DNA of 53,847 nt from Synechococcus sp. M44_DOE_062 (GTDB taxonomy: Bacteria; Cyanobacteriota; Cyanobacteriia; Thermostichales; Thermostichaceae): positions 1-53,847 of the forward strand of contig DVDX01000016.1 of NCBI GenBank assembly GCA_015295985.1, written 5' to 3'. The position numbers and the translations under genes are program-made. This document shows, piece by piece, positions 11,912-48,200 of this stretch. Below the pieces are notes generated by a model. The model was not told the DNA's origin and did not search any database. It worked only from the letters and a program-made list of their open reading frames with translations. The first letter of the stretch is position 1, and each line of letters starts with the position of its first letter.

Positions 11912-11929
11912 GACAGCACTTACCGTATA

Positions 11930-11951
11930 GCGCTCCGCGCCGCTGACGCGA
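11930..11951 (+). repeat. dispersed hairpin repeat, copy a (stem GCGC)
   Basis: GCGC-TCC-GCGC followed by the tail CGCTGACGCGA (11941-11951). It matches the window-wide family: variable stem, TCC/TAC loop, conserved tail. It faces copy b at 12096-12119, so the two tails form a long-range inverted pair in the gap between the DUF721 gene and the MscS gene. Confidence 0.75.
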
Positions 11952-12095
11952 GTGCGGGTCGGTTCCCTTATGCCCTAAGGTACCGTTGAACCAACACAAA
12001 AAAACTTAGGCCAGTTCTTTAGCCGTTAGGCTATTGGGTTTTTAGAGAGGTTGATTACCCTCACCTCTGTTTTTAGCTTAGCACAAAGCCGCCCT

Positions 12096-12119
12096 AGTCG
12101 CGTCAGCGAGCCGTAGGCT
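12096..12119 (-). repeat. dispersed hairpin repeat, copy b (stem AGCC)
   Basis: On the minus strand: AGCC-TAC-GGCT, then CGCTGACGCGA, the same tail as copy a with a different but still paired stem. A further GC-rich stretch, 12120-12155, may be a decayed relative. Nothing else is recognised in the 11912-12200 gap. Confidence 0.75.
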
Positions 12120-12200
12120 TAAGCGCAGCCGCGCCGCTAAAGCGAGAGGGCGGGGCTTTAGACCCAGGTTTTTGGTAAATAGGGTGTCGATGGCAATGGC

Positions 12201-14069
12201 TTAGGAAATACCATTTTGGTCTTCCGGCGATTGAGCCGCTTCTTTGAGGGCAGAGTGAATGGAGTCGGCATCGGGCAAAGAAGGGGATCCGCCGTTTTGA
12301 CTGAGGGGGGCAAATCCCTCTAGGCTGCGGATGTGAATGTCTTGTTGCGGGAAGGGGATGCGGATCCCCCGTCGCCGAAACTCTGCTTCAATCAGGAAGT
12401 TGAGCTCGCTGATCACGACCAGTTGATCTTGAGGACGGTTGATCCACACCAGCAATTCAAAGTTGAGCGCAGAAGGGCCAAAGGACTTAAGCCAGACTTG
12501 GGGGGCGGGGCTGCTCAACACCCGAGCATTTTCTTTGGCTGCGCTGAGCAGGGCTTCGGTGACCAGGGCTGTATCGGAGCCGTAGGCGACGCCGACCGGA
12601 ATGTGGATGCGACAGCGGGGATCCCGATAGCTCCAGTTCACCACCTTCGATTCGGTAAAGCGGGAGTTGGGCACAATCACAAAAATGCGATCCAGGGTGC
12701 GCAAGACGGTGGCCCGTGGGCCAATGCGCTCCACCGTGCCGAGTAAGTTGTCCACTTCCACCAGATCCCCAATTTGGATGGGGCGCTCCAGCAAAATGGC
12801 AATGTAGCTGATGTAGTTGTTGGAGAGGTTTTGCAAGCCAAAACCGATCCCCAAACCCACTGCCCCAGCGATGACCGCCAAGGAACCCAGATTAAGACCG
12901 CTGAAGGGCAGAACCAGGAGAATGCCAAAGAGGGTCAGGATGTACTTGAAGATGGCTGCCGAAGACTCTTGGGTGCCCAGATCTAGCCCTAGGCGTGCCA
13001 GAAAGCGCTGCTTGAAGCCAACGCTGACGTAGTGGGCGCCGGTGAAAACCAAAATGGAAAGAACGAGGAAGACCAGCAAGCTGGCAATTGAAACGCTGGA
13101 GTTGGGCAAAGGTTGGGTAAGAACACTCAGAGCCGTGGCAACCACACGACCCAGGCCTAGGTAAAAAGAGCGCTGAAAGGGTCGCAGGGCAGGGATGAAG
13201 CTGATACCACGATCCAGCGAGATGCCGGCGATGAGGATCACCCCCGCGCCCCGCAGCAGCATCCCACCCACATCGATCCAGGTGCCCCAGGTCTCTCCGG
13301 CCTTGAGCTCCAACCAGCGTTGCAGACGGGTTAAGCTGCGGTCGAACAGCCGCCAGAGAAAGAACCCCACCACCAGGGTGGCGATCCCTGCTAAGAGGGT
13401 CAGAACCAGCACGCGCGGATCCTGGGCCCGTTGCAGAGCCAGCAGGTCTTCGCGGTAATTGGCAATCGCTTGCTCCAACCGCCGCGCCCAACTGTTGGCC
13501 ACCAGACGCACGTCATTCAGGCTCACCTGACCCGGTGCTACCCTGCGCTCTGCGGCTGCATCGGCATAAGTGACGGTGAACAAATACCGTTGTGTGCGCT
13601 CAAAGCGGCCTCTTTCCCCCAGGCGTAAGATGTATTGCCCATTGGCATCCTGGGCCACCCGTACCTCTGGCTCCGGCAACTGGCCTTCTTCCAGAAAGCG
13701 CTCGATGATCGCCCGAACGTTGTCCGCCCGCACATCGCTGGGGTACTCTGCCGTCTGCAGGCGAAACACCGGGATGTTCCCCACCAACACCTCTGTGCCC
13801 TCTTGGCCGGTCAAAGGGAGCCCGACTGGGCTGGGGGCCGGAGCAGGGGATCCCTCAGGAATTGGCGCCTCAGCCGGTGTGGGGCGGGGATCCGTCAGGA
13901 AAAAGTTGGGATCCCGAAACTCGAGGGCTTGGGCCAAGGGGATGCCTGAAGGGGCAGAGGCAAGGGCAGGGGTAAGCCAGAGACCTATCCCTACCGCCAG
14001 CCCAACCACAAGAGCTACTCGCTTAAGTGGGACAGAGTCCTGCATGGCCAGTTTGCTGCGAACGCCCAT
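12201..14069 (-). CDS. MscS-family mechanosensitive channel
   Basis: A 622-residue membrane protein. An N-terminal signal sequence ends near TPALASA, followed by a Pro/Ala-rich and a periplasmic region to about residue 210. Several membrane spans follow. The MscS core is LGSLAVIAGAVGLGIGFGLQ (pore-lining helix), then NLSNNYISYIAILLERPIQIGD, VEVDNLLGTVERIGPRATVLRT and VPNSRFTESKVVNWSYRD, and a cytoplasmic alpha/beta domain. The family gates in response to membrane tension. ATG 14069 is used; a second ATG lies eight codons in. The codons just after it (DSVPLKR) look like a decayed copy of the dispersed hairpin repeat. Confidence 0.9.
   Translation of the reverse strand: MGVRSKLAMQDSVPLKRVALVVGLAVGIGLWLTPALASAPSGIPLAQALEFRDPNFFLTDPRPTPAEAPIPEGSPAPAPSPVGLPLTGQEGTEVLVGNIPVFRLQTAEYPSDVRADNVRAIIERFLEEGQLPEPEVRVAQDANGQYILRLGERGRFERTQRYLFTVTYADAAAERRVAPGQVSLNDVRLVANSWARRLEQAIANYREDLLALQRAQDPRVLVLTLLAGIATLVVGFFLWRLFDRSLTRLQRWLELKAGETWGTWIDVGGMLLRGAGVILIAGISLDRGISFIPALRPFQRSFYLGLGRVVATALSVLTQPLPNSSVSIASLLVFLVLSILVFTGAHYVSVGFKQRFLARLGLDLGTQESSAAIFKYILTLFGILLVLPFSGLNLGSLAVIAGAVGLGIGFGLQNLSNNYISYIAILLERPIQIGDLVEVDNLLGTVERIGPRATVLRTLDRIFVIVPNSRFTESKVVNWSYRDPRCRIHIPVGVAYGSDTALVTEALLSAAKENARVLSSPAPQVWLKSFGPSALNFELLVWINRPQDQLVVISELNFLIEAEFRRRGIRIPFPQQDIHIRSLEGFAPLSQNGGSPSLPDADSIHSALKEAAQSPEDQNGIS
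14019..14040 (-). repeat. probable decayed dispersed repeat inside the MscS gene
   Basis: On the minus strand: GGAC-TCT-GTCC, then CACTTAAGCGA. The stem is intact; the loop has one change and the tail four. It encodes DSVPLKR, nearly the DSVPLTR seen at another in-frame copy (27750). Confidence 0.45.
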
Positions 14070-14159
14070 CGATCAAGCAAGTGGGGATCCCTAGGTGCTG
14101 CCCTGTAAGCTCAGGGTGGCACAAGCCAATCTCAATTTTGGCCGATCTGAGCAAGGATT

Positions 14160-16247
14160 TTAGGTGCCCTGAGGGTGGCCCAGAAGGCGCTGACGTAGTT
14201 TTTTGATCTTATCTCGCAGCTCGGCGGCTTCCTCGAATTCTAGGTTTTTGGCGGCCTCTTTCATCTTCAGTTCCAGTTGGCGGATCAGCTCTGGAATCTC
14301 GGAGAGAGGGATCTCTTGCGCAGCTTGAAAGGCTTTTTCCAGATCTGAGTTGCTCAGTTTGCGGGAGATGGCCAAAAAAGACAAGATGGCATTGCTGTTT
14401 TTCTTGACGATGGGTTTGGGTGTGATGTTGTGTTGGCAGTTGTATTGCAATTGAATTTCGCGGCGACGCTGGGTTTCAGCAATAGCCCGGGCCATGCTGC
14501 CGGTCATGGTGTCGGCGTACATCACCACTGTTCCGCGGACATTCCGCGCTGCCCGCCCAATCATCTGAATCAGGGAGCGCTCTGCTCGCAAAAACCCTTC
14601 TTTGTCCGCATCCAAAATAGCCACCAAGGAGACTTCCGGCAGGTCTAAGCCTTCCCGCAGCAAGTTGACCCCCACCAACACATCAAAGGCCCCTTCTCGA
14701 AAATCTTGTAAGATTTCAATTCGCTCAATCGGGGTGATCTCGGAATGCAAGTAGCGAACTCGGATCCCTCGCTCCTGGAGATATTCTGTGAGATCTTCTG
14801 CCATCCGTTTGGTGAGGGTGGTCACGATCACCCGTTCGGCAGGCCCCTGCTGAGAGCGTTCCAATCGCAGATAAATTTCTCCCAGCAAATCGTCCACTTG
14901 CCCAGCCGTGGGGCGCACATGCACCTCCGGATCCACCACGCCAGTGGGCCGAATCACCTGCTCAACAACTCGACCGCTGCCTGGCACATAAAACCTCAAG
15001 GTCTTGCCGTCTTCCACCAGCGTTTCAAATTGGGCCTCACTCTGCTCCAGTTCCCAGTTGCCGGGAGTGGCCGAAACAAAGATGCATTGATGAACTTTGG
15101 CCCAAAATTCTTCGGCTTTGAGGGGGCGATTGTCGAGGGCGCTGGGCAGGCGAAAACCATGATCCACCAGCACCTGCTTGCGGGCACGGTCTCCATTGTA
15201 CATGCCGCGAATTTGGGGCACGGTAACGTGGGATTCATCCACCACCAACAGCCAATCGTTGGCCTTGAAATAATCCACCAAGCAGGCGGGGGGCTCTCCT
15301 GCCCTGCGCCCCGTTAAATGTCTGGAGTAGTTTTCAATCCCATTGCAATAGCCCACTTCTCGCAGCATTTCTAGGTCGTAGCGGGTGCGCTGTTCCAGCC
15401 GTTGGGCTTCCAGGAGCTTGCCTTCTTTGCGAAAGAGGGCCAGTTGTTCTTCCAGTTCTTGCTCGATGTTGAGGATTGCCCGCTCCAATTGTGCTTCTGG
15501 TGTTACAAAGTGCCGAGCAGGATAAACCCTGAGGGCGCTGAGGCTGTTCAAAATCTCGCCTGTAACCGGATCAATTAAGCGGATGGCCTCGATTTCATCC
15601 CCAAAAAACTCGATGCGTATCACCCGATCCTCATAGGCCGGCACAATTTCCAGCACATCTCCTTTGAGGCGAAATCGCCCTCGCACCAGCTCCAAATCGT
15701 TGCGCTCGTACTGGATGCTGGCCAGATCTCGCAGGACATCCCGTTGGTTGATCTCCTGTCCGACTTTGAAGGGGATAGAAGCCTTCAGGTATTCCTCTGG
15801 CATGCCCAGACCATAGATGCAGCTCACCGAGGCCACCACAATCACATCTCGCCGCTCAAACAAAGAGCGGGTAGCCGAGTGCCGCAGCATATCAATTTCA
15901 TCGTTGATGGAAGAAGATTTGGCAATGTAAGTATCGGTGCTAGGAACATAGGCTTCCGGTTGATAGTAGTCGTAATAGCTGATGAAGTATTCGACGGCAT
16001 TGTGAGGAAAAAGCTCCCGCAACTCATTGCACAGTTGGGCCGCCAGCGTTTTGTTGTGGGCCATCACCAAGGTGGGCCTGCCGACCTGCTGGATGGTGTG
16101 GGCGATGGTAAACGTTTTGCCGGTTCCGGTTGCCCCCAGCAAGGTTTGGAAACGATGGCCTTCCGAAATTGACTTCACCAAGCCGGCAATTGCCTTAGGT
16201 TGATCTCCGGTGGGTTGATAGGGAGAAACCAGTTGAAACTCGGACAT
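14160..16247 (-). CDS. uvrB: excinuclease ABC subunit B (UvrB)
   Basis: A 695-residue nucleotide excision repair helicase-like protein. It takes over damaged DNA from UvrA and recruits UvrC. Walker A is GATGTGKT (residues 38-45). The damage-probing beta-hairpin lies in [18 protein letters not shown], the DEAD-type box is VDESH, and helicase motif VI is QMIGRAARN. The C-terminal UVR motif ([27 protein letters not shown]) binds UvrC. Length and start ([20 protein letters not shown]) are typical. Confidence 0.98.
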
Positions 16248-16338
16248 AGGTTTGATTTTCTAACAATCCTAAGCTGAGGGTTCAAATCCAATCCAAACTA
16301 GGGGATACTGCGTTCCAAATCGGTGGATTTTAGGATGG

Positions 16339-16533
16339 CTATACAGATTGATGATATCCAATCGACCTCGTCGGGATGGGGGTAAGTACAGGGATCCAGA
16401 AGGTATAGCCAAACTCTACCCACCCATCTTCCGGCTCAAAGGGAAGATGAAAAGAGTTGCTGAAGGTATAAGCCTGATCCGGCTTCAGCACAGGCACTTT
16501 TGGCATAGGGATCCGGGAAAATTCTGGGTTCAC
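16339..16533 (-). CDS. small hypothetical protein or gene remnant
   Basis: A 64-codon frame (GTG 16533) or 56 codons from an internal ATG (16509). It encodes MPKVPVLKPDQAYTFSNSF and then PFEPEDGWVEFGYTF. The composition looks protein-like rather than random, and it lies alone in the 413-base gap between uvrB and murQ. No family is recognised. It may be the N-terminal fragment of a longer protein whose remainder has been lost. The rest of 16248-16660 is non-coding and rich in GGGATCC. Confidence 0.35.
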   Translation of the reverse strand: MNPEFSRIPMPKVPVLKPDQAYTFSNSFHLPFEPEDGWVEFGYTFWIPVLTPIPTRSIGYHQSV

Positions 16534-16660
16534 TCTAGCATTGGACTGAGGACAAGATGCTCAACAACCGGTTGGGATCCCCTTGCCACCGCTAGAATCC
16601 AAGAGGACAAAATGTGGGATCCCTAGAAAGCGGATCCCTCTTGCCTGGACAAGCACTGCT

Positions 16661-17590
16661 ATGGCTTCCCCACAACTGGCTTGGGATCCCGGATCCCTGA
16701 CCGAAAGCCCCAACCCGGCTACAGCCGAGATCGACCGTCTCAGCACCTTGGAACTGGTGAAACGGATCAACGCCGAGGATCGACGGGTGCCGGAAGCGGT
16801 AGCTGCTCAAGCGGAGCCGATTGCCCAAGCCATCGATGCCATTGCCGAGCGGATGCGTTACGGCGGGCGGCTGATCTATATCGGGGCAGGAACCTCAGGT
16901 CGTCTGGGGGTACTGGATGCGGCTGAGTGCCCACCCACTTTTGGCACTTCCCCTACACAGGTAGTGGCTTTGATCGCCGGGGGGGAAAAGGCCCTGACCC
17001 AGGCGGTAGAGGGTGCAGAGGATGACACCGAAGGGGCTGCCCGCGCGCTGGAGAGTCTTCATCTCCAAGCTCAAGATAGTGTTGTAGGAATTGCTGCCAG
17101 CGGTCGTACCCCCTATGTGCTGGGTGGGATCCGAGCTGCCAGAAGCATGGGGGCGCTCACGATTGGCCTGGCCTGCAATTCCCCTTCCCCCCTAACCGAG
17201 CAGGTGGATATTGCCATTGCCCCTTTGGTGGGGCCAGAGGTGATTCTTGGATCCACCCGCATGAAAGCCGGCACAGCTCAAAAGCTGGTGTTGAACACAA
17301 TCTCCACCGGGGTGATGATCCGCCTGGGCAAGACCTATGGCAATCTAATGGTGGATCTCCAGGCCAGCAATGCCAAGCTCAAGCGGCGAGCGGAGCGAAT
17401 GGTGGCCCTGGCCTGCAATCTGGATCCCACCACGGCTGCCCAATTGCTGCAGACTTGTGATGGAGAGGTGAAAACCGCGATCCTTGTGGCCTTAATGGGA
17501 TGCTCTGCTCAGGAGGCCCGTCAGCACTTGCAGCAGGCCCAGGGCAAAATTCGCCAGGTGCTTGACTCCGCTCTGGCGCAGCAGCGGTGA
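16661..17590 (+). CDS. murQ: N-acetylmuramic acid 6-phosphate etherase
   Basis: A 309-residue SIS-domain enzyme that cleaves the lactyl ether of MurNAc-6-phosphate in peptidoglycan recycling. Signatures: [41 protein letters not shown] (the catalytic glutamate is in AECPPTFG), [19 protein letters not shown], and [21 protein letters not shown]. The ATG at 16661 gives the normal N-terminus; in-frame codons from 16583 would add 26 residues without family support. The recombinase gene follows after 21 bases. Confidence 0.96.
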
Positions 17591-17611
17591 TGATGGCTTG
17601 GTGGCTTGTCC

Positions 17612-29324: not shown

Positions 29325-29424
29325 TACACCGCATAGGCAAATGGGGTTTCTGATGCCCCATCCACTGTCGCTACGCGACGCTGCCGCGACAGCGCTATCC
29401 ATCCCCACCCTGTAGAGGGTGGGG
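29325..29424. repeat. hairpin cluster between aroE and glnT, possible mobile-element end
   Basis: Three stem-loops stand in series. ATGGGG (29341-29346) pairs with CCCCAT (29356-29361). A dispersed repeat copy lies at 29367-29390 (GTCGC-TAC-GCGAC, then GCTGCCGCGAC). CCCCACCCT (29403-29411) pairs with AGGGTGGGG (29416-29424) over the loop GTAG. The last could terminate aroE, although no T run follows directly. Such spaced hairpins also resemble IS200/IS605 ends or a miniature element. Confidence 0.5.
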
Positions 29425-29477
29425 AATTCCGCACGTTTTGTTAAGTTAAGGTCACTCCAGAAAGCACTCCGTACCCC

Positions 29478-29554: not shown

Positions 29555-29562
29555 ATGCCGGC

Positions 29563-30861: not shown

Positions 30862-31112
30862 GCACCCAAGCTAGGTCTTAGCTTCGGGTAGAGATGTGTC
30901 TTTCAGCACAGAAATCAATCTTTTTTGGGGTTGAAAGCCGTAAGCGATCCAGACTGCTGCAATGCCATTTTTGATGCTTAGGGATGTTTAGGGGGCCCAG
31001 CAGCAAGTGAGACTTTCCAGAAGAGATCCACCAGAAGATTGGGCTGGTCTTTTTTCGGATGGCCGCTCTCTAGGCGGGAGAGAAGTATGATTGGGGTCGG
31101 TGGAGGTTGAGA

Positions 31113-32768: not shown

Positions 32769-32831
32769 CACCCATCGTAACCCGATCTGTTGATCCCAGC
32801 CTCAATCGAAAACTTATGACTCCTGAGCAGT

Positions 32832-33185
32832 TTGATATTGTTTGTTAACCGCCTGTTTCAACTCACCTTCCAGATCGGCGATCGCCTCGGCTGTGAGTCT
32901 TCCGATCCCGCTCAATTGTTGCTAACCCACCAACCTAGCCTGGAAGCATGCCACGTATACTTCCCCTCAGATTACGCTTACGAGGGACTTGATGCTGAGG
33001 TGTGGGCAAGTTATGCCGCTGAAGTGTCAGCCTTAGCACAGATGATTGAGATTTTGCAGACCTACCCCCTCACCTATGGCCTCTATCGCCAAGATGAAGT
33101 TTCGTGGTGGGTCTGTGCTTTTTGGATGGCCCAAGAGGACTTGGGAACCAACTTCCTACTGCGTGCGCATCGAGTCGAAACCTAG
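32832..33185 (+). CDS. hypothetical protein, start possibly broken by a 4-base duplication
   Basis: A frame of 117 codons from TTG 32832 with protein-like sequence (LFQLTFQIGDRLGCE, CHVYFPSDYAYEGLDAEVWASY, WWVCAFWMAQEDLG). An ATG at 32817 begins MTPEQFDIV in another frame and stops after ten codons. Removing four bases (the repeat in ATTGTTTGTTAACC, about 32836-32846) would join them as MTPEQFDIVNRLFQLTF. Either the gene uses TTG or it has recently been shifted. No family is recognised. Confidence 0.55.
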   Translation: MILFVNRLFQLTFQIGDRLGCESSDPAQLLLTHQPSLEACHVYFPSDYAYEGLDAEVWASYAAEVSALAQMIEILQTYPLTYGLYRQDEVSWWVCAFWMAQEDLGTNFLLRAHRVET

Positions 33186-33230
33186 CAGTTATGTTGCTTG
33201 GGTCTTGCTGCCATTCATCTGGAACGCTAT

Positions 33231-35027: not shown

Positions 35028-35296
35028 GGTTGAGGGGGCTAGAAGTGAGCTAAGAGCAATGGTGACCGGGATCCCTGCGGCAGTAGGAGCACTATCATAC
35101 CGGCAACGAACCGGCCATGACCAAGGCAGAGTTCTCACCTTGGCTGAAAGGGGATCCCCCAGCAGGTAAAGGTATCCTCGAATACAGAAGTTTGACTCCG
35201 CCTTGCTAAGTTGGTTGCCTATAGTCTTAACCTTATTGTTTGCCGCATTCCCATTTGCGGATCCTTACTGAGCCAGGTGCTGTGGAGCATACAGAT

Positions 35297-36385: not shown

Positions 36386-36869
36386 TCTGGGTAATCCGAC
36401 AACGATTTTGAAGCCTCTGTCTATTGGCTTGCCGGTGCAGCCAACTTATCCTGCTTGCTGGGAGGCTGTTTCCGGCTGCAGGTGCGGTCTGTGTCTCATT
36501 GGATCCCTCATTCGCGCGAAGTATCCCCAAAGCTTTTCGCGGCAGGGATCCCAGGCTGCTCCTGGAAGAGTCCGACGGTAGACCTGTTCCCGTTGGGGGA
36601 CAGGAGATCGGAAGCGGTGCGGAGCAGTAGGGGAGTGTCTCGAACTTTGTTTAAGGTTACCCAAGAACGCCGTAAGGCCCCTGCCTTCGAGCATGGGGAG
36701 CATGTCAATGAAATCAAACCTGAGAAACAGATGTATTGGGAAGAGTAGCTTATGGGTGCTTGAGGTCGAGGTAACTTTTTTGATCCCGAAAAAAAGCTGA
36801 ATAAGTTTGTGATGCCCAGGGATCCCTTTTAATTTTAATCTGAAGAGGATCGCTAGGGAGTTTAGGCCC
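36386..36869. other. 484-base gap before etfB, possibly with a decayed mobile-element end
   Basis: No intact gene. Short protein-like stretches in different frames around 36570-36750 (for example VPVGGQEIGSGAEQ and ERRKAPAFEHGEHVNE) and short GC stems around 36680-36710 suggest the worn 3' end of a transposase gene, but this is weak. The last 60 bases are AT-rich and probably hold the etfB promoter, with AGGGAG at 36855-36860 as ribosome site. Confidence 0.3.
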
Positions 36870-37694
36870 TTGGAAACTTTTGTTCTGATTAAGCAAGTTC
36901 CCGATCAAAATGCCAAAGCGGGCATCAACAGCGACGGCACGATTGACCGGGCCAAGGCCAAGCGGATGCTGAACCCTTTTGATCGCTATGCGCTGGAAGC
37001 AGCCCTGCAAACCAAACGGCAGCATGGGGCAAGGGTGACGGCAATCACAATGGGGCCACCTCCAGCCATTGAGGTGCTCTACGAGGCGATTGCCCACGGG
37101 GTGGATCGGGGCATTTTGATGACCGACCGCCGCTTGGCTGCTTCCGATACCTTGGCTACCGCCTACACCCTGGCTCAGACGGTTCGCTATGCTGGCCGGC
37201 CCCATGTCATTTTCTGTGGGCTTCAAACCACCGATGGCGATACAGCCCAAGTGGGGCCCCAGTTGGCGGAGCGGTTGGGGATCCCTCAGATCACCTATTG
37301 CGAAGCCTTCGAGATTCGGGATGGGATTGTGGTGGCGCGGCGGGCCATTGAGGGGGGATCCCAGATTGTGATGGCGCCCCTGCCGGTTTTGATTACGGTG
37401 GCCAATTCCGCTCGGCGTTTGGCCTACCCCACCCTACGGGGTGTGCAGCGGGTGCAGCGGCTGATGCGGGATGAAGCGGCACGGGCTGAGGCAATCCAGA
37501 TTCTCAACTTGGATGATGTGGGGGCAGACCCGGAGCGCTGCGGTCTCAAGGGATCCCCGACCATCGTGGCCGCCACCGAAAAAGTGGGGGAAATTGGCGG
37601 CAACTGTCAGGTCTTTCAAGGGCAATCCGTCCCCCAATTGGTCAGCCAACTGACCCAGGCTGTTGACCTCTTCCGCTACGCGGCAACTTCCTAG
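36870..37694 (+). CDS. etfB: electron transfer flavoprotein, beta subunit
   Basis: A 274-residue EtfB/FixA-type subunit that binds AMP and pairs with EtfA to carry electrons from dehydrogenases. Signatures: VLIKQVPDQNAKAGINSDGTIDR, NPFDRYALEAAL, VTAITMGPPPA, DRRLAASDTLATAYTLA, CGLQTTDGDTAQVGPQLAERLGIPQ. The start is TTG at 36870, giving METFVLIKQVPD, with AGGGAG nine bases before. etfA follows on the same strand after 214 bases, a wide gap for this pair. No ETF dehydrogenase is adjacent. Confidence 0.93.
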   Translation: METFVLIKQVPDQNAKAGINSDGTIDRAKAKRMLNPFDRYALEAALQTKRQHGARVTAITMGPPPAIEVLYEAIAHGVDRGILMTDRRLAASDTLATAYTLAQTVRYAGRPHVIFCGLQTTDGDTAQVGPQLAERLGIPQITYCEAFEIRDGIVVARRAIEGGSQIVMAPLPVLITVANSARRLAYPTLRGVQRVQRLMRDEAARAEAIQILNLDDVGADPERCGLKGSPTIVAATEKVGEIGGNCQVFQGQSVPQLVSQLTQAVDLFRYAATS

Positions 37695-37908
37695 ATCTTC
37701 CGCCTTGCATCCCTCTGGCCAATTCTCTTCTCAATCACCTCTCCATCATCATGTCTCATCATCGACCCCAGGGCGGCTAGCTGGCGAAAGCTCCTGGTTT
37801 TTAGGCGGTGAAAAGTTGACCCAGAAAGACTTTGCTGACCTCGTTGCAACCCCCAAGATTGCCCTCAACCCGATTCAATCCCGATCTCAATTTAGGAGTC
37901 ACGGTTCT

Positions 37909-39027
37909 ATGGATTGCAAGCGGATATTGGTCTTTGCCGAGCAGGTGAACGGGGAATTGCAGCCCATCGGCTTAGAGTTGTTGGGGGCCGGGCGACGGCT
38001 GGCCGATAAGCTGGGAGCCACCCTGAGTGCCCTTGTTCTTGGACACAACATTGCCCACTTGCCCCCAATCCTAATCGGTCATGGGGCAGATCAAGTCTTC
38101 ATCGCCGATCATCCGGAGTTGGCCGAATACCGCACCTTGCCCTACCGTCGGGTGATCACAGACTTGATCAAAAGCTGGCCCCAACCGCCCCACACCATCC
38201 TGCTGGGATCCACCACCACCGGGCGAGATCTGGCCCCCCGCTTGGCCGCCCACCTGGAGACCGGCCTGACGGCAGACTGCACCGAGCTGGACATCGGCCC
38301 CTTCGAGTACACCAACAGCAAAGATCCGAGCAAGTCTGGCCTCTTCCCCGACTGCCTCTATGCCATCCGGCCCAGCTTTGGCGAATCCCTCAAGGCCCGC
38401 ATCCTTGGCCCGTGGAAAAACCCACAGATGGCTACAGTGCGCCCAGGGGTGATGGTGCCCTTGCCTTGGGATGGATCCCGCCAGGGGGACGTGATCCCGG
38501 TACCGGTCAACTTGGATCCCGGCGACCTAAGCCTGCAGATTGTGGAAACGGTGCGCAACCTGTCCCAGGCGGTGGATCTCACCCGTGCCAAGGTGATTGT
38601 TTCCGGCGGCTACGGGCTGGGATCCCCAGAGGGATTTGAGCTGTTGAGGGAGTTGGCCGCTTGTTTTCCCAACAGCGCCGTCGGCTCCTCCCGCAAGGCC
38701 GTGGATTCTGGGTGGATCCCCTACGCCCATCAGGTGGGCCAAACCGGCAAGACCGTCCGCCCTCAGCTCTACATCGCCTGCGGCATTTCCGGAGCCATCC
38801 AACATCGGGTGGGCATGGACAAATCCCAAACGATCATCGCCATCAACAAAGACAGCTCTGCCCCCATCTTCAAATTTGCCCACTACGGTATCGTCGGGGA
38901 TCTCTACCAGGTGGTACCCGAACTGATCCGTCAGATGCAGCAGATGAAGGGTGAGATCAACGAACGAGCCAACAGCCAGCCTTTCCAAAGCGCCGGTGAG
39001 CGGATCCCAATTCTGCAGGGTCGATAA
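37909..39027 (+). CDS. etfA: electron transfer flavoprotein, alpha subunit
   Basis: A 372-residue FAD-binding EtfA. The N-terminal domain begins [20 protein letters not shown]. The C-terminal FAD domain holds [60 protein letters not shown] and [21 protein letters not shown]. The ATG at 37909 follows AGGAG by ten bases; in-frame codons from 37663 overlap the end of etfB and lack family character. The electron donor is not evident from neighbours. Confidence 0.96.
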
Positions 39028-39049
39028 AAGACTGCTAACCCAAACGCTC

Positions 39050-39334
39050 TCAGTGCAGAGCCATCGTCAGCAGCCCCTGCTGCCCCAGCAGCACCTCCCG
39101 CAACAGGGTAACCAGGCCCACCCAAACCACAGGAGCCATGTCCACGCCTCCCAGCGGCGGGATCAGGCGGCGGGTTGGGTGCAGCAGAAACTCTGTCAGG
39201 CTGACCACCAGCGAGTAGGGCAACCGGGAAGTATCCAGTTGCGGATACCACGACAGAAAGATGCGCAGCACAAACAGGATGGTGTAAAGCGCCAGCAGCG
39301 GGCCAAGCACCCAGGCAGTGAATATCGGCAGCAT
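39050..39334 (-). CDS. YggT family membrane protein
   Basis: A 94-residue protein with two membrane spans: LGPLLALYTILFVLRIFLSW and the C-terminal APVVWVGLVTLLREVLLGQQ. The family motif LHPTRRLIPPLGGVDMAPV lies between them. YggT (Ycf19-like) proteins are linked to chloroplast and nucleoid organisation and to osmotic tolerance. It faces etfA, with 22 bases between stop codons. Confidence 0.9.
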   Translation of the reverse strand: MLPIFTAWVLGPLLALYTILFVLRIFLSWYPQLDTSRLPYSLVVSLTEFLLHPTRRLIPPLGGVDMAPVVWVGLVTLLREVLLGQQGLLTMALH

Positions 39335-39578
39335 AGATTTTGCAGCAATCCAGCTTTAGGGGATACCCTAGATCCATTCTGCTCTGGATGGGAGCAACCT
39401 GTCGGGATCCCGAAGATGCCCCGGGGAATGCAGACGCTCGGCCCAAGTCAAACCCCGACTTTTTTAGACTTTAACTCTCTTCCCGAACATTCCCAAAAAT
39501 AGCCTTGCCGACGGGGCGGCAACCGCAAAGACTAGCGTCATAATGGTCGTATCTTGCTGGACTTCAGGCAGGGATCCC

Positions 39579-40721
39579 ATGCAGGGAAAACTACAAGAGA
39601 TCGATATCCGCAGTATCCTTCAGCTCATCGAGCTGGGCCAGCGCACCGGTGAGCTTTTTGTAGAGGCTAGCTCCTCTGTCTACTGGTTTGTCTTTTTCCT
39701 GAATGGGCGAATCATCTACGCCTCTGAAGCGGAAGGGAACATTGCCCGCCTCAAAGACTACTTGCGCCGGTTCAAGGTGGAAGCTGCCCTTGAGGAAATT
39801 CAAATTCCCCACAAAGCTGCGGTCAATGCCCCCGAATACAACCGCCTCTGGTCTTTGCTAGAAAACCACAAGCTTAGCCCCAACCAAGGCAAGCAAATCC
39901 TGCTGGGCATGGTGCGGGAAGTCCTCTTCGACCTGCTCAGCCTTCACCATGGCTCTTTCATTTTCGAGGCCGGATCCCCCCTATCCCCCCAGTTGACCAC
40001 CTTCCCCGTCACCCCCCTGCTCACCGAGATCGTAGCCCAAGTGCAGGAGTGGAAGAAACTGCACCCCTACATCCAAGCTCCCAACCAAGCCCCCACCATC
40101 GTCAACCCCCTGCCGCTCCAGCAAAATCTGCCTGCCCCCGTCTTCAAAGCCCTGAGCGAGTGGTCGGATGGCAAAACCAGTATTCGCCAGATGAGCCGCT
40201 ACCTGGGTCGAGACACCCTCACGGTGGCCAAGGCCATCTATCCCTACGTCTGCCAAGGGGCCATTCAACTGTCCGAGCCCGTCTTGATCGTGGAGCCCAA
40301 GCCCAGCCGTCCCCTCAAACCCAGCGATAAGCCCAGCCACATCCTTTGCATCGACGATTCCATGGCCATCCAAAAAACCGTGGAGTTCATCCTGCAAAAC
40401 GAGGGCTACCAGGTCACCACCATCGGCAATCCTCTCAAAGCCCTGGGACAGGTGTTTCTCCTCAACCCAGACATGATCCTCTGCGATGTGGCCATGCCCA
40501 AATTGGATGGGTATGAGCTGTGCGCCATGTTGCGCAAGTCTAGCCAGTTTCGCGAAACCCCCATGATCATGCTGACCGGCAAGGATGGTTTTACCGACCG
40601 GATTAAGGCCCGCATGGCCGGAGCCAACGAATTTTTGAGCAAACCCTTTGCGGAAAAGGAGTTGTTGACCATTGTCGAATCCTACGTGGGCCCTCCCCTC
40701 AAACGGGGCGGTGGCGAATAG
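39579..40721 (+). CDS. PatA-like response regulator (PixG/PilG type)
   Basis: About 380 residues. The N-terminal DUF4388/PatA domain (MQGKLQEIDIRSILQLIELGQRTGELFVE, then FFLNGRIIYASEAEGN) leads to a helical middle. The C-terminal receiver (about 252-375) has ILCIDDSMAIQKT, an acceptor Asp in MILCDVAMPKLDGYEL, and LTGKDGF and SKPFAEKEL. It is the first gene of the chemosensory operon, the position of pixG or pilG in Synechocystis tax loci. ATG 39579 follows GCAGGGA. The 244-base gap upstream holds no gene. Confidence 0.9.
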   Translation: MQGKLQEIDIRSILQLIELGQRTGELFVEASSSVYWFVFFLNGRIIYASEAEGNIARLKDYLRRFKVEAALEEIQIPHKAAVNAPEYNRLWSLLENHKLSPNQGKQILLGMVREVLFDLLSLHHGSFIFEAGSPLSPQLTTFPVTPLLTEIVAQVQEWKKLHPYIQAPNQAPTIVNPLPLQQNLPAPVFKALSEWSDGKTSIRQMSRYLGRDTLTVAKAIYPYVCQGAIQLSEPVLIVEPKPSRPLKPSDKPSHILCIDDSMAIQKTVEFILQNEGYQVTTIGNPLKALGQVFLLNPDMILCDVAMPKLDGYELCAMLRKSSQFRETPMIMLTGKDGFTDRIKARMAGANEFLSKPFAEKELLTIVESYVGPPLKRGGGE

Positions 40722-40784
40722 GCGTTGGGGCAGCCAAAATATTGGCCCAGAGGACTGTGGGCGGAGTACTGGACAGAAGAGTGG

Positions 40785-40841
40785 CCTCACCGAAACAATA
40801 GGGGTAGCATGGCCGACCGGGAGCCATGGAGCCCGGTGAGG
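40785..40841 (+). other. nested stem-loop between the PatA-like gene and cheY
   Basis: CCTCACCG (40785-40792) pairs exactly with CGGTGAGG (40834-40841). An inner stem, CATGGC (40808-40813), pairs with GCCATG (40823-40828). It could set relative expression of the first and second operon genes by partial termination or RNA processing. No T run follows, so a simple terminator is unlikely. Confidence 0.5.
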
Positions 40842-40909
40842 TTACAAGAGCAAACCTCAGTCAAGGCAGCCCGACGGTGGCGCGGGAGTGCAAAAGGAGC
40901 AAGGCGGCG

Positions 40910-41287
40910 ATGAGCAAAGTGCTGGTGGTGGATGACAACCGTACCTACCTGGAGACCATTTCCAGCTTGCTTTCCAAGAACGGTTTGGAAGTCTCCACAG
41001 CAACAGACGGCATAGAGGCGATGGAGCTCATTCGTCAGCAAAAGCCTGATGTGGTGGTGCTGGATATTGTCATGCCGCGCATGAACGGCTACGAGGTGTG
41101 CCGGGAAGTGAAGGGGGATGAGAGCACCAAGCACATTCGCATCGTCATGTGTTCCATCAAAGACCAGACCTTTGATATCGAGTGGGCCAGGCGCAACCAG
41201 GCGGATGCCTATGTAACCAAGCCCTTCCAGCCCCAAGAGCTCCTGGCGACCATCAAACATCAATTGCGGGAGATGAATCGGAAATGA
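40910..41287 (+). CDS. CheY-like single-domain response regulator (PixH/PilH type)
   Basis: A 125-residue stand-alone receiver starting MSKVLVVDDNRTYLETISSL. The phosphoacceptor is D52 in VVVLDIVMPRMNGYEV, and the conserved lysine is in VTKPFQPQEL. ATG 40910 has AGGAG ten bases before it. Its stop codon overlaps the next start in an ATGA junction (41284-41287), so translation is coupled. The close similarity to the next gene suggests tandem duplication. It probably signals to the pilus motor. Confidence 0.95.
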   Translation: MSKVLVVDDNRTYLETISSLLSKNGLEVSTATDGIEAMELIRQQKPDVVVLDIVMPRMNGYEVCREVKGDESTKHIRIVMCSIKDQTFDIEWARRNQADAYVTKPFQPQELLATIKHQLREMNRK

Positions 41288-41649
41288 GTCGCGTTTTGGT
41301 GGTGGAAGACAGCCAATCTCAGCGGGAGATGATCAGCAAGCTGCTGCAGGAGAACGGCTTGGAGGTGACGATGGTGGGGGATGGCGTGGAAGCCATCGAA
41401 GCCGTGAAGCAGAGCAAACCTGATCTGATCGTGCTGGATATTGTGATGCCGCGCATGAATGGGTATGAGGTGTGCCGCCTTCTGAAGGCCGATCCCCTCA
41501 CCCAGAAAACCCCGATCGTCATGTGTTCCTCCAAGGGCGAAGAATTTGACCGCTACTGGGGGATCCGCCAGGGAGCGGATGCCTACATTGCCAAGCCCTT
41601 CCAGCCCCAGGAGCTGGTGGGTACGATTAAACAATTGCTGAGAGGTTGA
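41284..41649 (+). CDS. second CheY-like response regulator
   Basis: A 121-residue stand-alone receiver, MSRVLVVEDSQSQREMISKL, with D52 in IVLDIVMPRMNGYEV and lysine in IAKPFQPQEL. It shares LDIVMPRMNGYEVCR and KPFQPQEL with the preceding gene, evidence of duplication, but its N-terminal half differs. The start overlaps the previous stop by four bases. Confidence 0.95.
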   Translation: MSRVLVVEDSQSQREMISKLLQENGLEVTMVGDGVEAIEAVKQSKPDLIVLDIVMPRMNGYEVCRLLKADPLTQKTPIVMCSSKGEEFDRYWGIRQGADAYIAKPFQPQELVGTIKQLLRG

Positions 41650-41760
41650 GAACCACTTTTCTGCCTCGAGACTTCTGGAAAGTCGAAGGGCTTTGTGTTT
41701 TGGCAGGGGGCGTGGGCGGAGACAAACTCTCCACAAGACTGTTACAGGCGGGGGAGCATC

Positions 41761-42279
41761 ATGCTGGGGGATCTGGATTTATTGATGGGGGATGAAACCC
41801 AGGAACTGCAGGAGATGGAGGCTCCCGAGGGTGAGCTGTTCCTAAAGTTCAAGATTGCCACCGGGGAGGAATTTGCGCTGCCAGCGGTATCGGTTGTAGA
41901 GGTGATGAGCATTGGCCCAGAGAAAATCACCCCCATGCCCAATGTCGCTCCGGTTTTGCTGGGCACGCTGAATTTGCGGGGCGAGATCATCTGGGTTGCA
42001 GACCTGGGGCAATTTTTGGGGATCAGCCCACCCCTGAACATCGACCGAGCCGAGATTCCTGTGGTGGCCGTAATGGATCAACAGGATTTGCTGATGGGCT
42101 TGGCTGTGGATTTAATTGTGGGTATGGAGTGGCTGAAGACTGAACTGGTGCGGCCTGCCCTCACGGCTCCTGAGTCCATGGCTCCTTTTTTGCGAGGAGA
42201 ATGGGTGGTGCCCGGAACGGGAGCGCGCTTGCCATTGCTGGATCAGTCGGCCATTCTGAGATCCCATCGTTGGGGTTGA
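41761..42279 (+). CDS. CheW-like coupling protein (PixI/PilI type)
   Basis: A 172-residue CheW domain protein linking the receptor to CheA. The core reads FLKFKIATGEEFALPAVSVVEV, ITPMPNVAPVLLGTLNLRGEIIWVADLGQFLG and GLAVDLIVGMEWL. An acidic N-terminal extension (MGDETQELQEMEAPEGE) precedes it. ATG 41761 follows GGGGAG (41751-41756). It lies between cheY and the receptor gene in the usual operon order. Confidence 0.93.
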   Translation: MLGDLDLLMGDETQELQEMEAPEGELFLKFKIATGEEFALPAVSVVEVMSIGPEKITPMPNVAPVLLGTLNLRGEIIWVADLGQFLGISPPLNIDRAEIPVVAVMDQQDLLMGLAVDLIVGMEWLKTELVRPALTAPESMAPFLRGEWVVPGTGARLPLLDQSAILRSHRWG

Positions 42280-42590
42280 CAGACGGCCCTCTAGGAGCTC
42301 GGCGGGAGGAAAGTGTATAGTTCCTATCAAAGATCCAAGCTCACTCCGTTCACAATGGGGAAAGCTGGACTGACGCTATCCCCTACGGATGCGTGCCGAG
42401 GCGGTTGAGGGCAGGGTTGCATAACAGCTAAGCCCTAAGAGGGCGGCAGAAAGGTGCATTCTCGACCAAAAGGGGGCAGAAGGGGAGATAGCTTGCATTT
42501 ATTCTATGGGGTTCTGAGGTGTTGGGGGCGTTCCGTTAGCATCTGTGTTGAAGCATGAACAGAGGTAGCCAAGCAGTCAAGGGAGGATCC
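42280..42590 (+). other. operon-internal gap between cheW and the receptor gene
   Basis: About 311 bases, wide for this operon. A hairpin GCCCT-AAG-AGGGC lies at 42432-42444. ATCC...GGAT with a central TAC (about 42378-42391) may be a distant relative of the dispersed repeat. A second promoter for the receptor and CheA genes is possible. No gene is seen. Confidence 0.4.
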
Positions 42591-45092
42591 ATGGTTCCGA
42601 GCGCGAACAGTCAGAGAGACTACACCGATGCGGTGGCCGCCTTTTGGCAGGGAGACTACGTCCAGGCGGTGCGGTTGTTCAACCAAGTGGCCGCTGCTCA
42701 GCCGCAAGATACTACTGTCAAGCTGCTGCTGGCTTCAGCACAAAAACAAGCTGGGCAGTTGTTAGAAGCTCGCCAGACCTACAACACCATTTTACAAATG
42801 GCCAGCGATCCCGATGAGCTGGAGTCGGCCCGGAAGGGTCTAGAAGAGCTGTTGCAAATGGCGCCGGAGCTAGCGGACATTCCCGATTCCCCAAGAGTGG
42901 ACGAGTTTCGCCCTCAAGATGAGTTTGCACCTGCGTCGGATGCCTTTTCAGAAGTGGCTTTCCCGGCTGCCGATCCCTTCTTGCAGTTCGAGGGGATGGG
43001 GGAAGCGGATCCCTTCGCTCAAGATCCGTTTCCGCTGGAGGCGGACAGCCTTGGCAGCGATAGCGAGGTCTTCATGGGAGAAGAGAGATTTAGGGATCCC
43101 TTTGAGACCGGCCTGCAAATGCCGGGGGCTGATCCACTGAGTCCATCTTACAAACTGCCGACCTATCCTCGGGTAACCCCGTCAGTCATCTCAGGATGGG
43201 CAGGCTCGCAAGAGAGTGGGCCTCAAACCAATCGGGTGGCTGAGAGTGACTTTGCCTTTCTCAACGAGTTCGATCGAGATCATCCGGAAGTTCTAGAAGG
43301 GGACTCCGATACGCAGTTGGCCGTCGATGCCGATTTTCCTGATGAGATGGGCTTCTCCCTGCCCGGTCTTGAGGAAGAGGAAGGGGGATCCCTGGATGAA
43401 GTCCTGCCGACCGAATTGGTTGCCCCCATGAGTGAGCCGATCCCTGCCCCTGATGAAGATACTGCCAGTCCCGGCTCTGCTCTTTTCGATCTTGACGAGC
43501 TAGACAGCCTGGATCGCGAACTTGCCGGCATGGATGGCGGCGAGCCGGTGGGTGCCTTCTACCCAGACGAAGGGGCGACCGGGGGAATGAGCCCAATGGT
43601 GGAGACCAGCAGTGGAGCGGCCCAAGTTTTGCAGCCGCAACGTCTGCCCACGGCCTTACTCCCCATCCCCGATGTAGGTGAGCAAGGGGCAAGAGCGTCC
43701 GCCGGGATTGCCAACCGACCGATTGCGGATCGGCAATTGGCCATAGCGCTTATCCAAGGAGCGGTGAGTTTGGCTGCCGGATTGGCGATTGGTCTTGGGA
43801 TCCCGACCAATGGGGGAGCCCGCTTGATTGCCGGGGTGATCGGAGGCGGGGTGATCGGCACAGGAGCAGGGGTTATCCTTGGAGCCGGCAGTGCCAAACA
43901 CGTTCGCTCCACCGCCCAAGAGCTGGCCAGTCATTTTGCCGCTTTGGCCCAGGGGAATTATTCAGTACGAGCCACAGCCAACACCCACGATGAGCTGGGG
44001 CGCTTGGCCGACAGCTTTAACCAGATGGCGGCTGCCATCGAAGCCAACTTCACCGAACTGAACCAGCGGGCTGCCGAGCAAGGGCAAGCCAAGGAAGACC
44101 TACAGCGCCAGGTGATTCGCCTGCTGGACGACGTGGAAGGAGCCGCCCGTGGAGACCTGACCGTGCGGGCAGAGGTGACTGCCGATGTGCTGGGGGCTGT
44201 GGCCGACTCCTTTAACCTAACCATTCGCAGTCTGCGAGACATTGTCAGCCAGGTGAAGCGGGCTGCTGCCGCCGTGAACGATGCCGCCTTGCAGAACGAG
44301 GACTTTGCCCGCAGCCTCTCTGCCGATGCCTTGCGCCAGGCAGAGGAGATCTCCAACTCCCTCAACTCCATTCAGGAGATGACGGACTCCATTCAAGAGG
44401 TGGCCAGCAACGCCCGCGAAGCGGCCAATGTGACCGCCCAAGCCACAGAAGCAGCCTCTCGAGGCGGAGAAGCTGTGGATCGCATGGTGAGTGGCATCCT
44501 GGAGATCCGCGAAACCGTGGCAGAAACCACCCGCAAAGTGAAGCGATTGGCGGAATCCTCGCAGGAAATTTCCAAAATTGTGGCTTTGATTTCTCAAATT
44601 GCCTCTCGCACCAACCTGCTCGCCCTGAATGCCAGTATCGAGGCGGCTCGAGCTGGGGAATCGGGACGGGGCTTTGCCATCGTGGCCGATGAGGTGCGAC
44701 AACTGGCCGACCGAGCTGCCAAAGCCTCGAAGGAGATTGAGCAGATTGTGTTGCAGATTCAATCGGAAACCAGCAACGTGATGACGGCCATGGAAGAGGG
44801 CACCCAATTGGTGATCGAGGGGACGCGGCGGGCAGAGCAGGCCAAGAACAGCCTGGACGAGATCATCGAGGTCAGTCGCCGGATTGACGAGCTGGTGCGG
44901 GCGATCTCTCAGGCCACCGTGCAACAAACGGAAACCTCTCGCTCTGTGGCGCAAGTGATGCAATCGGTGGAGTTGACCGCCAACGAGACTTCCAAAGAGG
45001 CGCAGAAGGTGGCAACTTCGCTACAACAGTTGGTGAGTATTGCCCGTGAGCTGCAAACTTCTGTCGGTCGGTTCCGGGTTGGGGATGAATGA
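42591..45092 (+). CDS. methyl-accepting chemotaxis protein (PilJ-like)
   Basis: About 833 residues. An N-terminal TPR-like helical region (residues 10-85: [41 protein letters not shown]) is followed by an acidic low-complexity region to about 370. Two membrane spans follow around 385-440 (rich in Gly/Ala/Ile), then one or two HAMP-like regions ([41 protein letters not shown]). The signalling domain has the tip [21 protein letters not shown] and [18 protein letters not shown] near residue 671. No GAF or bilin-binding domain is visible, so it is PilJ-like rather than the PixJ photoreceptor. ATG 42591 follows GGGAGG; ATG 42555 is in frame without a ribosome site. Confidence 0.9.
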
Positions 45093-45280
45093 GCAAATTT
45101 GCTGTTTTGAGGGCATTCTAGGGGCAAGGATCCCCATGACGGAGAAGTCCCCGATTTGCAATGGCAGTGGGATCCCCCTGTTGCAACCGTTGGCCGGACT
45201 TTTCGCCCAGGCGAGCCTCGCCCTGTCCGGTCTGTTATTACTGAATGAAAACTTGTGGGCTGTAGGAAGGGCCTCCTGCC

Positions 45281-48200
45281 ATGAATGAAGAAGCACAGAA
45301 GCGGATCCTCAGTTATTTCATCGAAGAAGCCCGCGACCACTTGGCAACGATTGAACAAGTGCTCCTCAGCCTGCGGGACAGCATGAGCGATCCCGAGCTG
45401 ATCAACGAACTGTTTCGAGCTGCTCACTCCATCAAGGGAGGAGCTGCCATGCTGGGTCTCACCAGCATCCAACGGACGGCCCACCGCATGGAAGATTTTT
45501 TTAATATCTTTCGCTCTCGCCCAGGCGGAGTGCCCGTCGATCAGCACCTGGAAACCCTGCTGCTGCGAGCTTTTGATGGGCTTTCGATGTTGTTGGAGGA
45601 GCTGCAGAGCCCCCGCGGCCTCACCCAGGAAGTCAGCAACACCACCCTGGCGGAATTGGAGCCGGTTTTTCAAGAGACCGAAAAGCACATTCAAAATCTT
45701 CTTGGCGAAGGCCCTGTCTCAGCTCCCGTCTCACCGCCGCCGGTTCGCACCCTGCAGCAAGACATGGCGGAGGTGGTGCCGCAGCAGTTGCGCCAGATGC
45801 TGGAGCTGTTTAAACAACGGGATCAGCCAGATGTCCGAGAGCGTTTGGTGGCGGCGAACGCCGTTCTCAAGGAGATCGGGCAAGTCCATCATCTGGCGGG
45901 CTGGCAACAGTTAACGGAAACCTTCGAGCAAGCCCTGGGCAACCCCGATGCCGACCTGCGAACTTTGGCTTTGGTTGCCTTGCGGGATTTGAAGCAAGGG
46001 CAGCAACTTATCTTGGCCGGCAAGCCTGAGCAGGTTGCCCCCTCCTCAGAATTGCAACAATTGGCTCGTCCTGCCGCCCCTCCTGCCCCGCCGGATCCCC
46101 TCGAGGTGCTGGTGCATCAGCAGATCCCGGCCTTGTTGCGCCAGATGTTGGAACTCTTCAAACGTCCCGACGACCCAGCCACTCGACCGGCCCTGCAAGC
46201 GTTGGCGCAATCTTTGCAGGATTTGGGGCAATCCTCGGCTCTGGAACTGGGGGGCTGGACAGATTTGACCCGCTTGATCGGCGAGATTTTGGCGGATCCC
46301 GGCCAGGATTTGCGACAACTGGCCCTGCCGGTGCTGCGAGACCTGAAGCAAGCGCACCAAGCTCTGGCCAGTGGAGCGGCAAACACCATCCAGCCCTCGG
46401 CTGAGTTGCTGGCTTTCCGCCCTGTTCCGGCAGCCCCTGAAGAGCCAGAAGTCCCCGAGCCCTTCGACCTTGGCCTTGCTTGGGGGTCTGAGGCAGAGCC
46501 GCCATTCCCAGAACCCGAGGGTGCTGCAGAGGATTGGGCTGTGGCTGCTGGGATCCCTGCGGAGGAAAGCGCTGCCCCCAATCTGAGCTGGGAAGCAGTA
46601 CCCCTGGCCGAGACCTCTTTTGATGGGGATGAGCTGGGAGCCGACCAATTGCCGGAGCAGGAGAGCGTAGAGACAAGCTGGGATCTGGTGGCAGAACAGC
46701 CCCCATCCCTTTGGGAAGTGGGCACCGCTGAGGACTCCGTCCCGCTGGTGGGAACAGATTCAGAGCCTCTGTCTTCTCCCGCGGAAGAGGGCAATCTAGG
46801 TGATCTGAGTTGGCCAGAGGTCGGAGCTGCAGCAGCTTGGGAAGAAGACCGGTGGGCAGCCGCTGGGTCGATAGAAAGCCCAGAAGAGGACGGGCCGGGG
46901 ATCGACTTGCTCTCTGGTGCCGGCGACTTTGGTCGCGCTAGCGGAGCGGAGCTCTATGCCACCCCCTTGGATCTGGAGGAAGAAGCCACCTCAGCCTTTG
47001 ACGAACTGTTTGCCAATGCAGAAGCGCTATCCGATATCGAAGAGTTCCCAACAGAGCTGATCCCTCCCTCTCCTGAGCCCTTCTCCCAGACCTTTGAGGA
47101 TCTGAGCCCAAGGTTGGAGGAGGAGAGAGCCGAGGCAGATCTGGCGGAGTTGTTTGCCGAAGTGGTGGGTGAAGGGGCAGAGGGGGTCGTCTCTGCTGAA
47201 TCTGCCTGGGATACCGCTGAACAGGAGCCAACTGCCCAGAGCGTTGCTGCGGAAATGAGCGAGGGATCCGGCTTTGCCCCAGAGGTAGCCGCAAGTGCCG
47301 GGGTAGAGGCGCTGTTTGAGCTTGAGGAACTTCCCCTGGAGAGCGCTTCCCAGCAAGAAGGGTCTCAGCTTCCTGACGTTGAGGCCGTTGCCGCGGCTGA
47401 GCTGTCTTCACCCCTCCAGGAAGCCCTTGAGGATGGGGAGATCGCAGCAGATCTTTGGGCTGAATTTCCCGCAGACCTCCAGCTAGAGGATTTTTCCCTC
47501 CCAGCAGATCATCTGGCAGAGTCGGGTTCCGACGAGGTGGGATCCCTGGAGGTTGCCGACCCTGCTGTCTTTGATGCTGCCGAAGACAGCCTGGAAAGCC
47601 TTTTTTCCACCCCTGCGGCAGAAGCCGATCCGGCTTGGTCGATGCTGGAAGTCGGTGAACCTTCCGTATTTTCTTTGGACATTGCCGAGCCTGAGCAACT
47701 CGGGGATCTCGTTGTTGGCGAACCCTTCCCCACGTTGGACGAGCTTGCCTCTCTACCCGACATGGCCAACGAGCCGACGGAATCGGCAATTCCAGACTTC
47801 AGGGCTGAGCTGAGCCTGGGGGATCTCTTTGCCGGTGAGCTCCCCGAGGAGGACTCCATCCCACTGACCCAATCAGAAGCTGGGGACACAGCGGAAGCCC
47901 AAGAGTGGGCGCTTCTGGAGGATCTGTTCCCGGTTCAGGAGGAGTCTTTTGCGGAGCTGCAACCCATGGCTGAGGAGGCAGTCCCCCCTTCCTCGGAGAT
48001 TCCTTTCGACCGTCTCGATGCTCTGTTCACTCAGGAATCCGACGGATCCCTCTCGGCCTTGGATGCCGATGGCGGTCGCGCCAGCGGAGCGGAGCTCTCT
48101 GGCCAGGTGGATCTGGATGAGTTGAGCCAGTTCTTAGCAGAAGGGGAAGCGCCCCAAGAAGGGATCCCCTTGGATTTTGCCACCTTCCTGGGCGACACAG

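Follow-up and report, generated by a model that had tools for sequence, protein, structure and literature searches.

A probable 24-nucleotide mobile hairpin element of the small dispersed repeat class in a hot-spring-Synechococcus-like genus of cyanobacteria

The window analysed here, a 53,847-nt stretch of the cyanobacterium Synechococcus sp. M44_DOE_062 (contig DVDX01000016.1), carries a family of short hairpin repeats. We place the repeat in the cyanobacterial small dispersed repeat (SDR) class, as a non-autonomous mobile element of 24 nt, the stem of which has to pair for mobilisation (probability roughly 0.7); that it is mobile and related to the SDRs is, taken on its own, very likely. 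Each element consists of two predicted abutting mini-hairpins. Stem 1 is 4–5 bp long, free in sequence and capped by a TMC loop (M, A or C), and the tail is laid out as CGC-TNNC-GCG-A. Comparison of related genomes showed what appears to be a mobile unit, with a target of T and then mostly YR (Y, pyrimidine; R, purine), a stem that is paired but unfixed in sequence, and many sites in open frames.

The genome that contains the window (G000, a 2.93-Mb draft) was compared with five genomes of the same genus (G177, G386, G387, G388 and G389). G177 is 88–94% identical to G000 in aligned blocks longer than 3 kb. Indels were scanned in 44 G000–G177 alignments (142 kb including overlaps), which were chosen as element-holding regions, and the rates are therefore not genome averages. 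After removal of two of the 16 24-bp rows of G000 as duplicates (L175), 24 bp was the largest indel class from 7 bp upwards, with 19 distinct cases versus at most nine at any other such length; the 6-bp class also held 19. The element accounted for 18 of these 19, 14 present only in G000 and four only in G177, and the remaining one (C7 51912) was unrelated sequence. Without selection for length, the blocks contained 46 elements, of which 25 were in both genomes, two were partly gapped and 19 were absent from the other genome. The gap was exactly 24 in 14 of the latter and otherwise 13, 39 and 82 bp, with two elements sharing one 54-bp gap made up of two tandem units and 6 more bases. Two copies of the window, at 27748–27771 and 28051–28074, are exact 24-bp insertions in one reading frame and are absent from both G177 and G386. 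G386 lacked the copy in all four of the 18 cases that aligned well with it, namely these two, C7 117882 and C12 7418 (the last with 3 further bases missing).

The empty sites of the 18 clean 24-bp cases were read in element orientation. A T stood directly after the insertion point in all 18, and YR came next in 15. From the T onwards, the sites read TCAG (5), TTGG (3), TCCG (2), TCGG (2) and six others once each; three further cases read by eye also have the T (L029 1645; L008 1500 versus G386; G177 25257 versus G386). Several flanking bases differ at C12 1265 and 5306, where the exact site is less sure. In the filled sites the base at the T position was A in nine, C in eight, G in one and never T, although T follows the tail in 35 of the whole set of 178 copies. 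In five of the 18 clean cases the 24-mer begins with T, so that the target T may have been kept on the left; in the other 13 it has been lost or changed. Bases just right of the junction were often unlike the empty site.

The original prediction held that the stems differ yet stay paired. For its test, copies were chosen from 768 kb of two genomes by their loop and tail, with the 5' arm ignored; some of them are orthologous. This set is preferred as the cleaner test because a second, structure-aware set (A1) was chosen partly by pairing. Among the blind-picked copies with exact tails, 88 of 109 were fully paired, whereas shuffling the 3' arms 2,000 times left on average 25.6 and never more than 38 paired, which bears the prediction out; among the 187 copies obtained by tolerating one tail mismatch, 124 were fully paired (shuffled mean 35.4, maximum 50). 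The paired stems form subfamilies (GGAC 41, GTGC 19, TTGC 9, GGCC 8 and six rarer ones) and not a cloud of singletons. Set A1 comprised 58 rows, five of the 63 found having been omitted, all fully paired with 2–3 tail mismatches. In this set 97.8% of helix-1 cells were paired, and 74 cells over both helices were changed on both sides versus a shuffled mean of 21.3, while two of five measures (pairs changed on both sides, and further pair types) were not above the shuffles. The loop-closing pair is almost always C-G, and the two tip bases of the tail hairpin are variable (178 distinct ungapped sequences of 193 matches).

Seventeen of the 18 clean insertions were fully paired, and they carry seven stem sequences. 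Copies shared between genomes were also compared, using a set of 14 rows from which L001 was dropped for misalignment. The 13 usable alignments, a small sample, held five one-sided and no two-sided stem changes; minus two doubtful rows (C76 and L003, with 4–6 mismatches and maybe not elements), 11 copies held four one-sided and no two-sided changes. Since the shared copies showed no compensated change, pairing seems to be a requirement of mobilisation and not of a function at the resident site. The prediction that a folded strand is what is selected or recognised thus holds in part: pairing is apparently needed for mobility but is not visibly kept in place. The source of the covariation would be several mobile stem variants that spread.

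The repeat had been predicted to be a dispersed family, and it was found throughout the genome and in relatives. The pattern TMCNNNNCGCTGACGCGA had 106 matches in G000 and its reversed control had none. A covariance-model search, proposed with the original prediction, gave 113 matches at E ≤0.05 in 387,589 bases of G000. In the same bases, a paired stem with an exact tail occurred 21 times versus 0 in each of five first-order Markov shuffles, rising to 77 copies with at most two tail mismatches (0 in the five shuffles) and 101 with at most four (0–4 per shuffle). The sampled stretches are rich in the element, holding 26 of the 106 exact matches, and the genome-wide number is therefore estimated at about 450 and not at the length-scaled 850. 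All six genomes of the genus, five of which are at least 99% complete, contain the family; at E ≤0.001 they had at least 139, 139, 101, 97, 49 and 22 matches, which are lower bounds from 150 candidates scored in each. The exact pattern was present in 28 of 386 cyanobacteria, with at most four matches per genome outside the genus, and the reversed control gave single matches in some. The covariance model found 1–14 matches in 11 of 20 other genomes, mainly in a Nostocaceae-like family (f7), in the window's own family and in genome G213; f7 is called Nostocaceae-like because named records, such as Cylindrospermum (L096), carry its repeat. Plasmids searched with one 52-nt query and viral contigs searched with two patterns gave no match. 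No description of the family in hot-spring Synechococcus was found in the literature searched, which covered few subscription papers.

Several G000 contigs start at element copies (for example C12:9, C17:7, C25:7, C26:8 and C56:32). Those at the starts of C12 and C25 are 24-bp tandem arrays, and hence longer arrays may be unresolved in this draft. In G177, four arrays of two units each, three of which are exact, lie within some 5.3 kb (L226:11959–17214). Among the matches listed for the G177 chromosome, 39 are forward and 19 reverse, a count made by eye and without the origin, from which strand clustering is not claimed.

At least ten copies with one architecture had been predicted in the window. 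Eleven of the 12 copies listed earlier have a 4–5 bp stem, a TCC or TAC loop, the complementary stem and a tail with at most three mismatches from CGCTGACGCGA; the exception is the copy at 28295, whose tail is decayed (CGCTATTGCTA). One copy (48568–48591) was found beyond that list. The copies and one associated stretch are as follows.

11928–11951, plus strand: 24-nt element, stem GCGC/GCGC, loop TCC, exact tail
12098–12121, minus strand: 24-nt element, stem AGCC/GGCT, loop TAC, exact tail
27748–27771, plus strand: 24-nt element, in frame within the open reading frame (ORF) 27586–28149 (peptide KDSVPLTR); absent from G177 and G386
28051–28074, plus strand: 24-nt element, stem GGAAC/GTTCC, in frame within ORF 27586–28149 (RNSVPLTR); absent from G177 and G386
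28222–28245, plus strand: 24-nt element, stem GTTGC/GCAAC, one tail mismatch, within a longer composite repeat
28246–28269, minus strand: 24-nt element, stem GGAC/GTCC, three tail mismatches, in the composite repeat shared with the 28222 copy
28294–28317, plus strand: decayed copy, stem GTTGC/GCAAC, tail lost
28316–28339, plus strand: 24-nt element, stem TGCC/GGCA, loop TAC, two tail mismatches
29366–29389, plus strand: 24-nt element, stem GTCGC/GCGAC, loop TAC; the surrounding intergenic stretch is absent from G177
46730–46753, plus strand: decayed copy, in frame in a CheA-type hybrid kinase (EDSVPLVG), three tail mismatches
46933–46956, minus strand: copy in frame in the CheA-type kinase (GRASGAEL), two tail mismatches
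48076–48099, minus strand: copy in frame in the CheA-type kinase (GRASGAEL), one tail mismatch
48568–48591, minus strand: copy with exact tail, three of four stem positions paired; 8-residue insertion (RVSGGEHF) relative to the G386 protein
28157–28413: stretch upstream of the shikimate dehydrogenase-like ORF 28408–29313, absent from G177, with four nested element copies and with parts repeated at many places in the genome

The right flank CTAGGGCGG of the copy at 12098–12121 is also found at several other AGCC/GGCC-TAC copies.

Fourteen of the 18 clean insertions lie within ORFs of 187–793 codons (measured in the filled genome), on either strand, and these reading frames stay open. The 24-nt length preserves the frame and the commonest copy lacks a stop in five of six frames (by inspection), so that an insertion would add eight residues to the protein, which would often be tolerated. 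ORFs were called mechanically, and the flanking peptides were compared, since the longest ORF of the empty genome was on the other strand in several cases; the site at C12 1265 seems to lie upstream of the true start, and the peptide at C12 3594 differs after the site. The CheA-type hybrid kinase (Hpt, HATPase, CheW and receiver domains) holds four in-frame copies; that at 48568 is the insertion noted above, and the remaining three are in a linker that aligns poorly.

Four elements were folded on both strands. Whether treated as DNA or as RNA, all eight sequences formed two abutting hairpins, and the strand with the GNA loop was slightly more stable in both forms. On the reverse strand a C-G pair closes a GNA triloop (C-GGA-G or C-GTA-G), a motif that a reference title in PMC11101458 names for extraordinarily stable DNA minihairpins. 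Because of this loop we prefer recognition of single-stranded DNA, a route that we hold to be slightly less than an even chance. A trans-acting enzyme would recognise the folded strand, most likely as single-stranded DNA, the recognised strand being that with the C-G-closed GNA loop (CGGAG or CGTAG), and would join the element at a nick at a T-Y-R site. The paired stem would be required for this mobilisation, and stem variants would spread as subfamilies.

Several points weigh against this account. Folding z-scores were weak (−0.5 to −1.9), and no covariation was detected in the tail hairpin in set A1. The argument from the GNA loop is an indirect one, as GGA and GTA are the only common forms and RNA from the same strand carries the same loop. 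Searches of the six genomes for PF00078, RAYT and Y1 proteins revealed no mobilising enzyme. In all 18 cases A, C or G stands beside the element in place of the target T, which plain cut-and-join would not predict. The 18 cases were picked as 24-bp indels, and element differences of other lengths exist (13, 39, 54, 54 and 82), mostly in multi-element or rearranged stretches; a near-clean net difference of 18 bp at L012 2580 also contains an element, and a Nostocaceae-like example (L035) nets +23 and not +24. In 14 of the 18 cases gain and precise loss are not told apart by a third genome.

The alternative that survives best, though we regard it as unlikely, is donor-templated copying without a dedicated enzyme, in which replication switches to another copy and back and carries 24–25 nt with it. 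Donor-like bases (A or C) follow the tail in 17 of the 18 filled sites, extra changes right of the junction are common and 24-bp tandem arrays occur, all of which would fit such copying. However, a T at every one of the 18 target sites and a gap that is predominantly exactly 24 (in 14 of 19 cases) point to a site-specific step, and copying of this kind would not need pairing, yet 17 of 18 clean insertions were fully paired.

Somewhat less probable is an RNA intermediate, whereby nicked T-Y-R sites would receive a DNA copy of a short folded transcript. The stem covariation, the compact RNA hairpins predicted on both strands and the proposal reportedly made for SDRs speak for it. Against it, reverse transcriptases of PF00078 were found in none of the six genomes (enzymes outside that Pfam family were not searched), despite at least 139 copies in each of two of them and many presence/absence differences between close relatives.

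IS200/IS605 TnpA enzymes act on single-stranded hairpins, and a Y1 transposase of this kind might move the hairpin in trans, as RAYTs move REPs; we rate this lower again. Y1 matches were present in all six genomes (G000 4, G386 19, G177 2, G387 3, G388 4 and G389 9), and in both G177 and G000 an element copy is at most about 70 bp away from a Y1 match. On the other hand, each of the four matches in the G000 draft has a stop or is a fragment, none being intact (in G177 one of two is full-length without a stop), and element numbers do not track Y1 numbers, as G386 has 19 Y1 matches and at least 101 elements and G177 has two and at least 139. The copies near Y1 genes were considered as possible IS ends and were judged to be probable insertions into the IS-end palindrome. 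The RAYT model NF047646 found nothing above its cut-off of 80 bits in any of the six genomes, with weaker matches in three (best 43.4 bits), and the three Y1 proteins tested were IS200/IS605 TnpA. The link to REPs drawn in the original prediction was accordingly not supported, and many copies lie inside genes.

A functional RNA or regulatory hairpin kept in place by selection, which the covariation among copies could suggest, is very improbable in view of the 14 of 18 clean insertions in ORFs on either strand, the lack of compensated change in the few shared copies examined and the lack of an Rfam family at the window copies at gathering scores.

A mobile element of the SDR class is thus the reading we retain. 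The SDR4, SDR5 and SDR6 repeats of Nostoc and its relatives (Elhai et al. 2008) are reportedly mobile hairpins of 21–27 nt with compensatory changes and nested or tandem copies; they are said to be confined to one subgroup of cyanobacteria, and an RNA intermediate has reportedly been proposed for them. We know of no identified mover of such elements since 2008. The element described here agrees in its size (24 nt, with 14 of 19 presence/absence gaps exactly 24), in its hairpin with compensatory changes, in its nested and tandem copies and in its recent mobility (direction checked with a third genome in four cases), the likeness being judged by these reported properties of the class. The original prediction compared the repeats with REPs or with small dispersed repeats of other cyanobacteria and knew of no description of this exact design; the second comparison stands, and the design matches that reported for the SDR class. 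With REP/REPIN sequences and their RAYT enzymes the element shares short hairpins, many dispersed copies and a non-autonomous nature. It differs in its 24-nt unit, in the lack of a RAYT above the cut-off, in the lack of a conserved terminal GTAG/CGTC (CGTC is a possible reading of the reverse strand, though with two variable bases among the four) and in its position inside ORFs in 14 of 18 clean insertions, REP/REPIN being extragenic. Rickettsia palindromic elements are palindromic units inserted in frame into protein genes; the present element is likewise in frame but much shorter, with another sequence and another host. Miniature elements derived from IS200/IS605 also offer single-stranded hairpins as possible substrates, but the present element has no separate left and right ends around a cargo, and its copy number does not track that of Y1.

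According to PMC4390886, SDR5 inserts exactly between bases 3 and 4 of HIP1. In G213, GCGAT precedes all six copies viewed (of seven matches), followed by TCGC in three, ACGC in two and TCGG in one; these copies split a HIP1 or near-HIP1 site at the position reported for SDR5. At the Nostocaceae-like locus L035 a repeated palindrome was found empty and, elsewhere, filled, the T before CA being replaced by the element plus A. In the window's genus, by contrast, the target is TYR(G) without HIP1, unlike the rule of SDR5. HIP1 occurs once in the window, in which GGGATCCC is the commonest octamer (80 copies). This octamer is the indirect basis for placing the genus near Synechococcus JA-3-3Ab (PMC4390886). 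Since HIP1 fits T-Y-R, the insertion of SDR5 at HIP1 may be one special instance of the T-Y-R rule. Judged from sequence comparison, the family appears to be a HIP1-independent branch of the SDR class in a hot-spring-Synechococcus-like genus, with direct empty-site evidence and a target rule. More tentatively than the single-stranded DNA route itself, it is conceivable that an undescribed enzyme reads the GNA-loop hairpin in single-stranded DNA and moves the 24-nt unit to T-Y-R sites without a reverse transcriptase or a RAYT, that SDR5 at HIP1 is one case of this rule, and that the machinery spans hot-spring-type cyanobacteria and Nostocales.

Two other features of the window were observed. 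A CRISPR array of 17 repeats that match Rfam CRISPR-DR58 lies at 52570–53830 on the minus strand. Two matches to the IsrR antisense RNA family, at 2588–2753 and 4251–4428 (minus strand), lie opposite ORFs 2180–3214 and 3828–5414, which suggests that these are two isiA-type genes.

In conclusion, paired empty and filled sites yielded the unit (24 nt), the target rule (T-Y-R) and the structural requirement of what is probably a mobile element, and SDR-like elements may be the smallest mobile elements. Since this genus combines many recent differences and small genomes with no PF00078 reverse transcriptase found, the idea of an RNA intermediate is directly testable in it. The insertions add 8-residue linkers to proteins.

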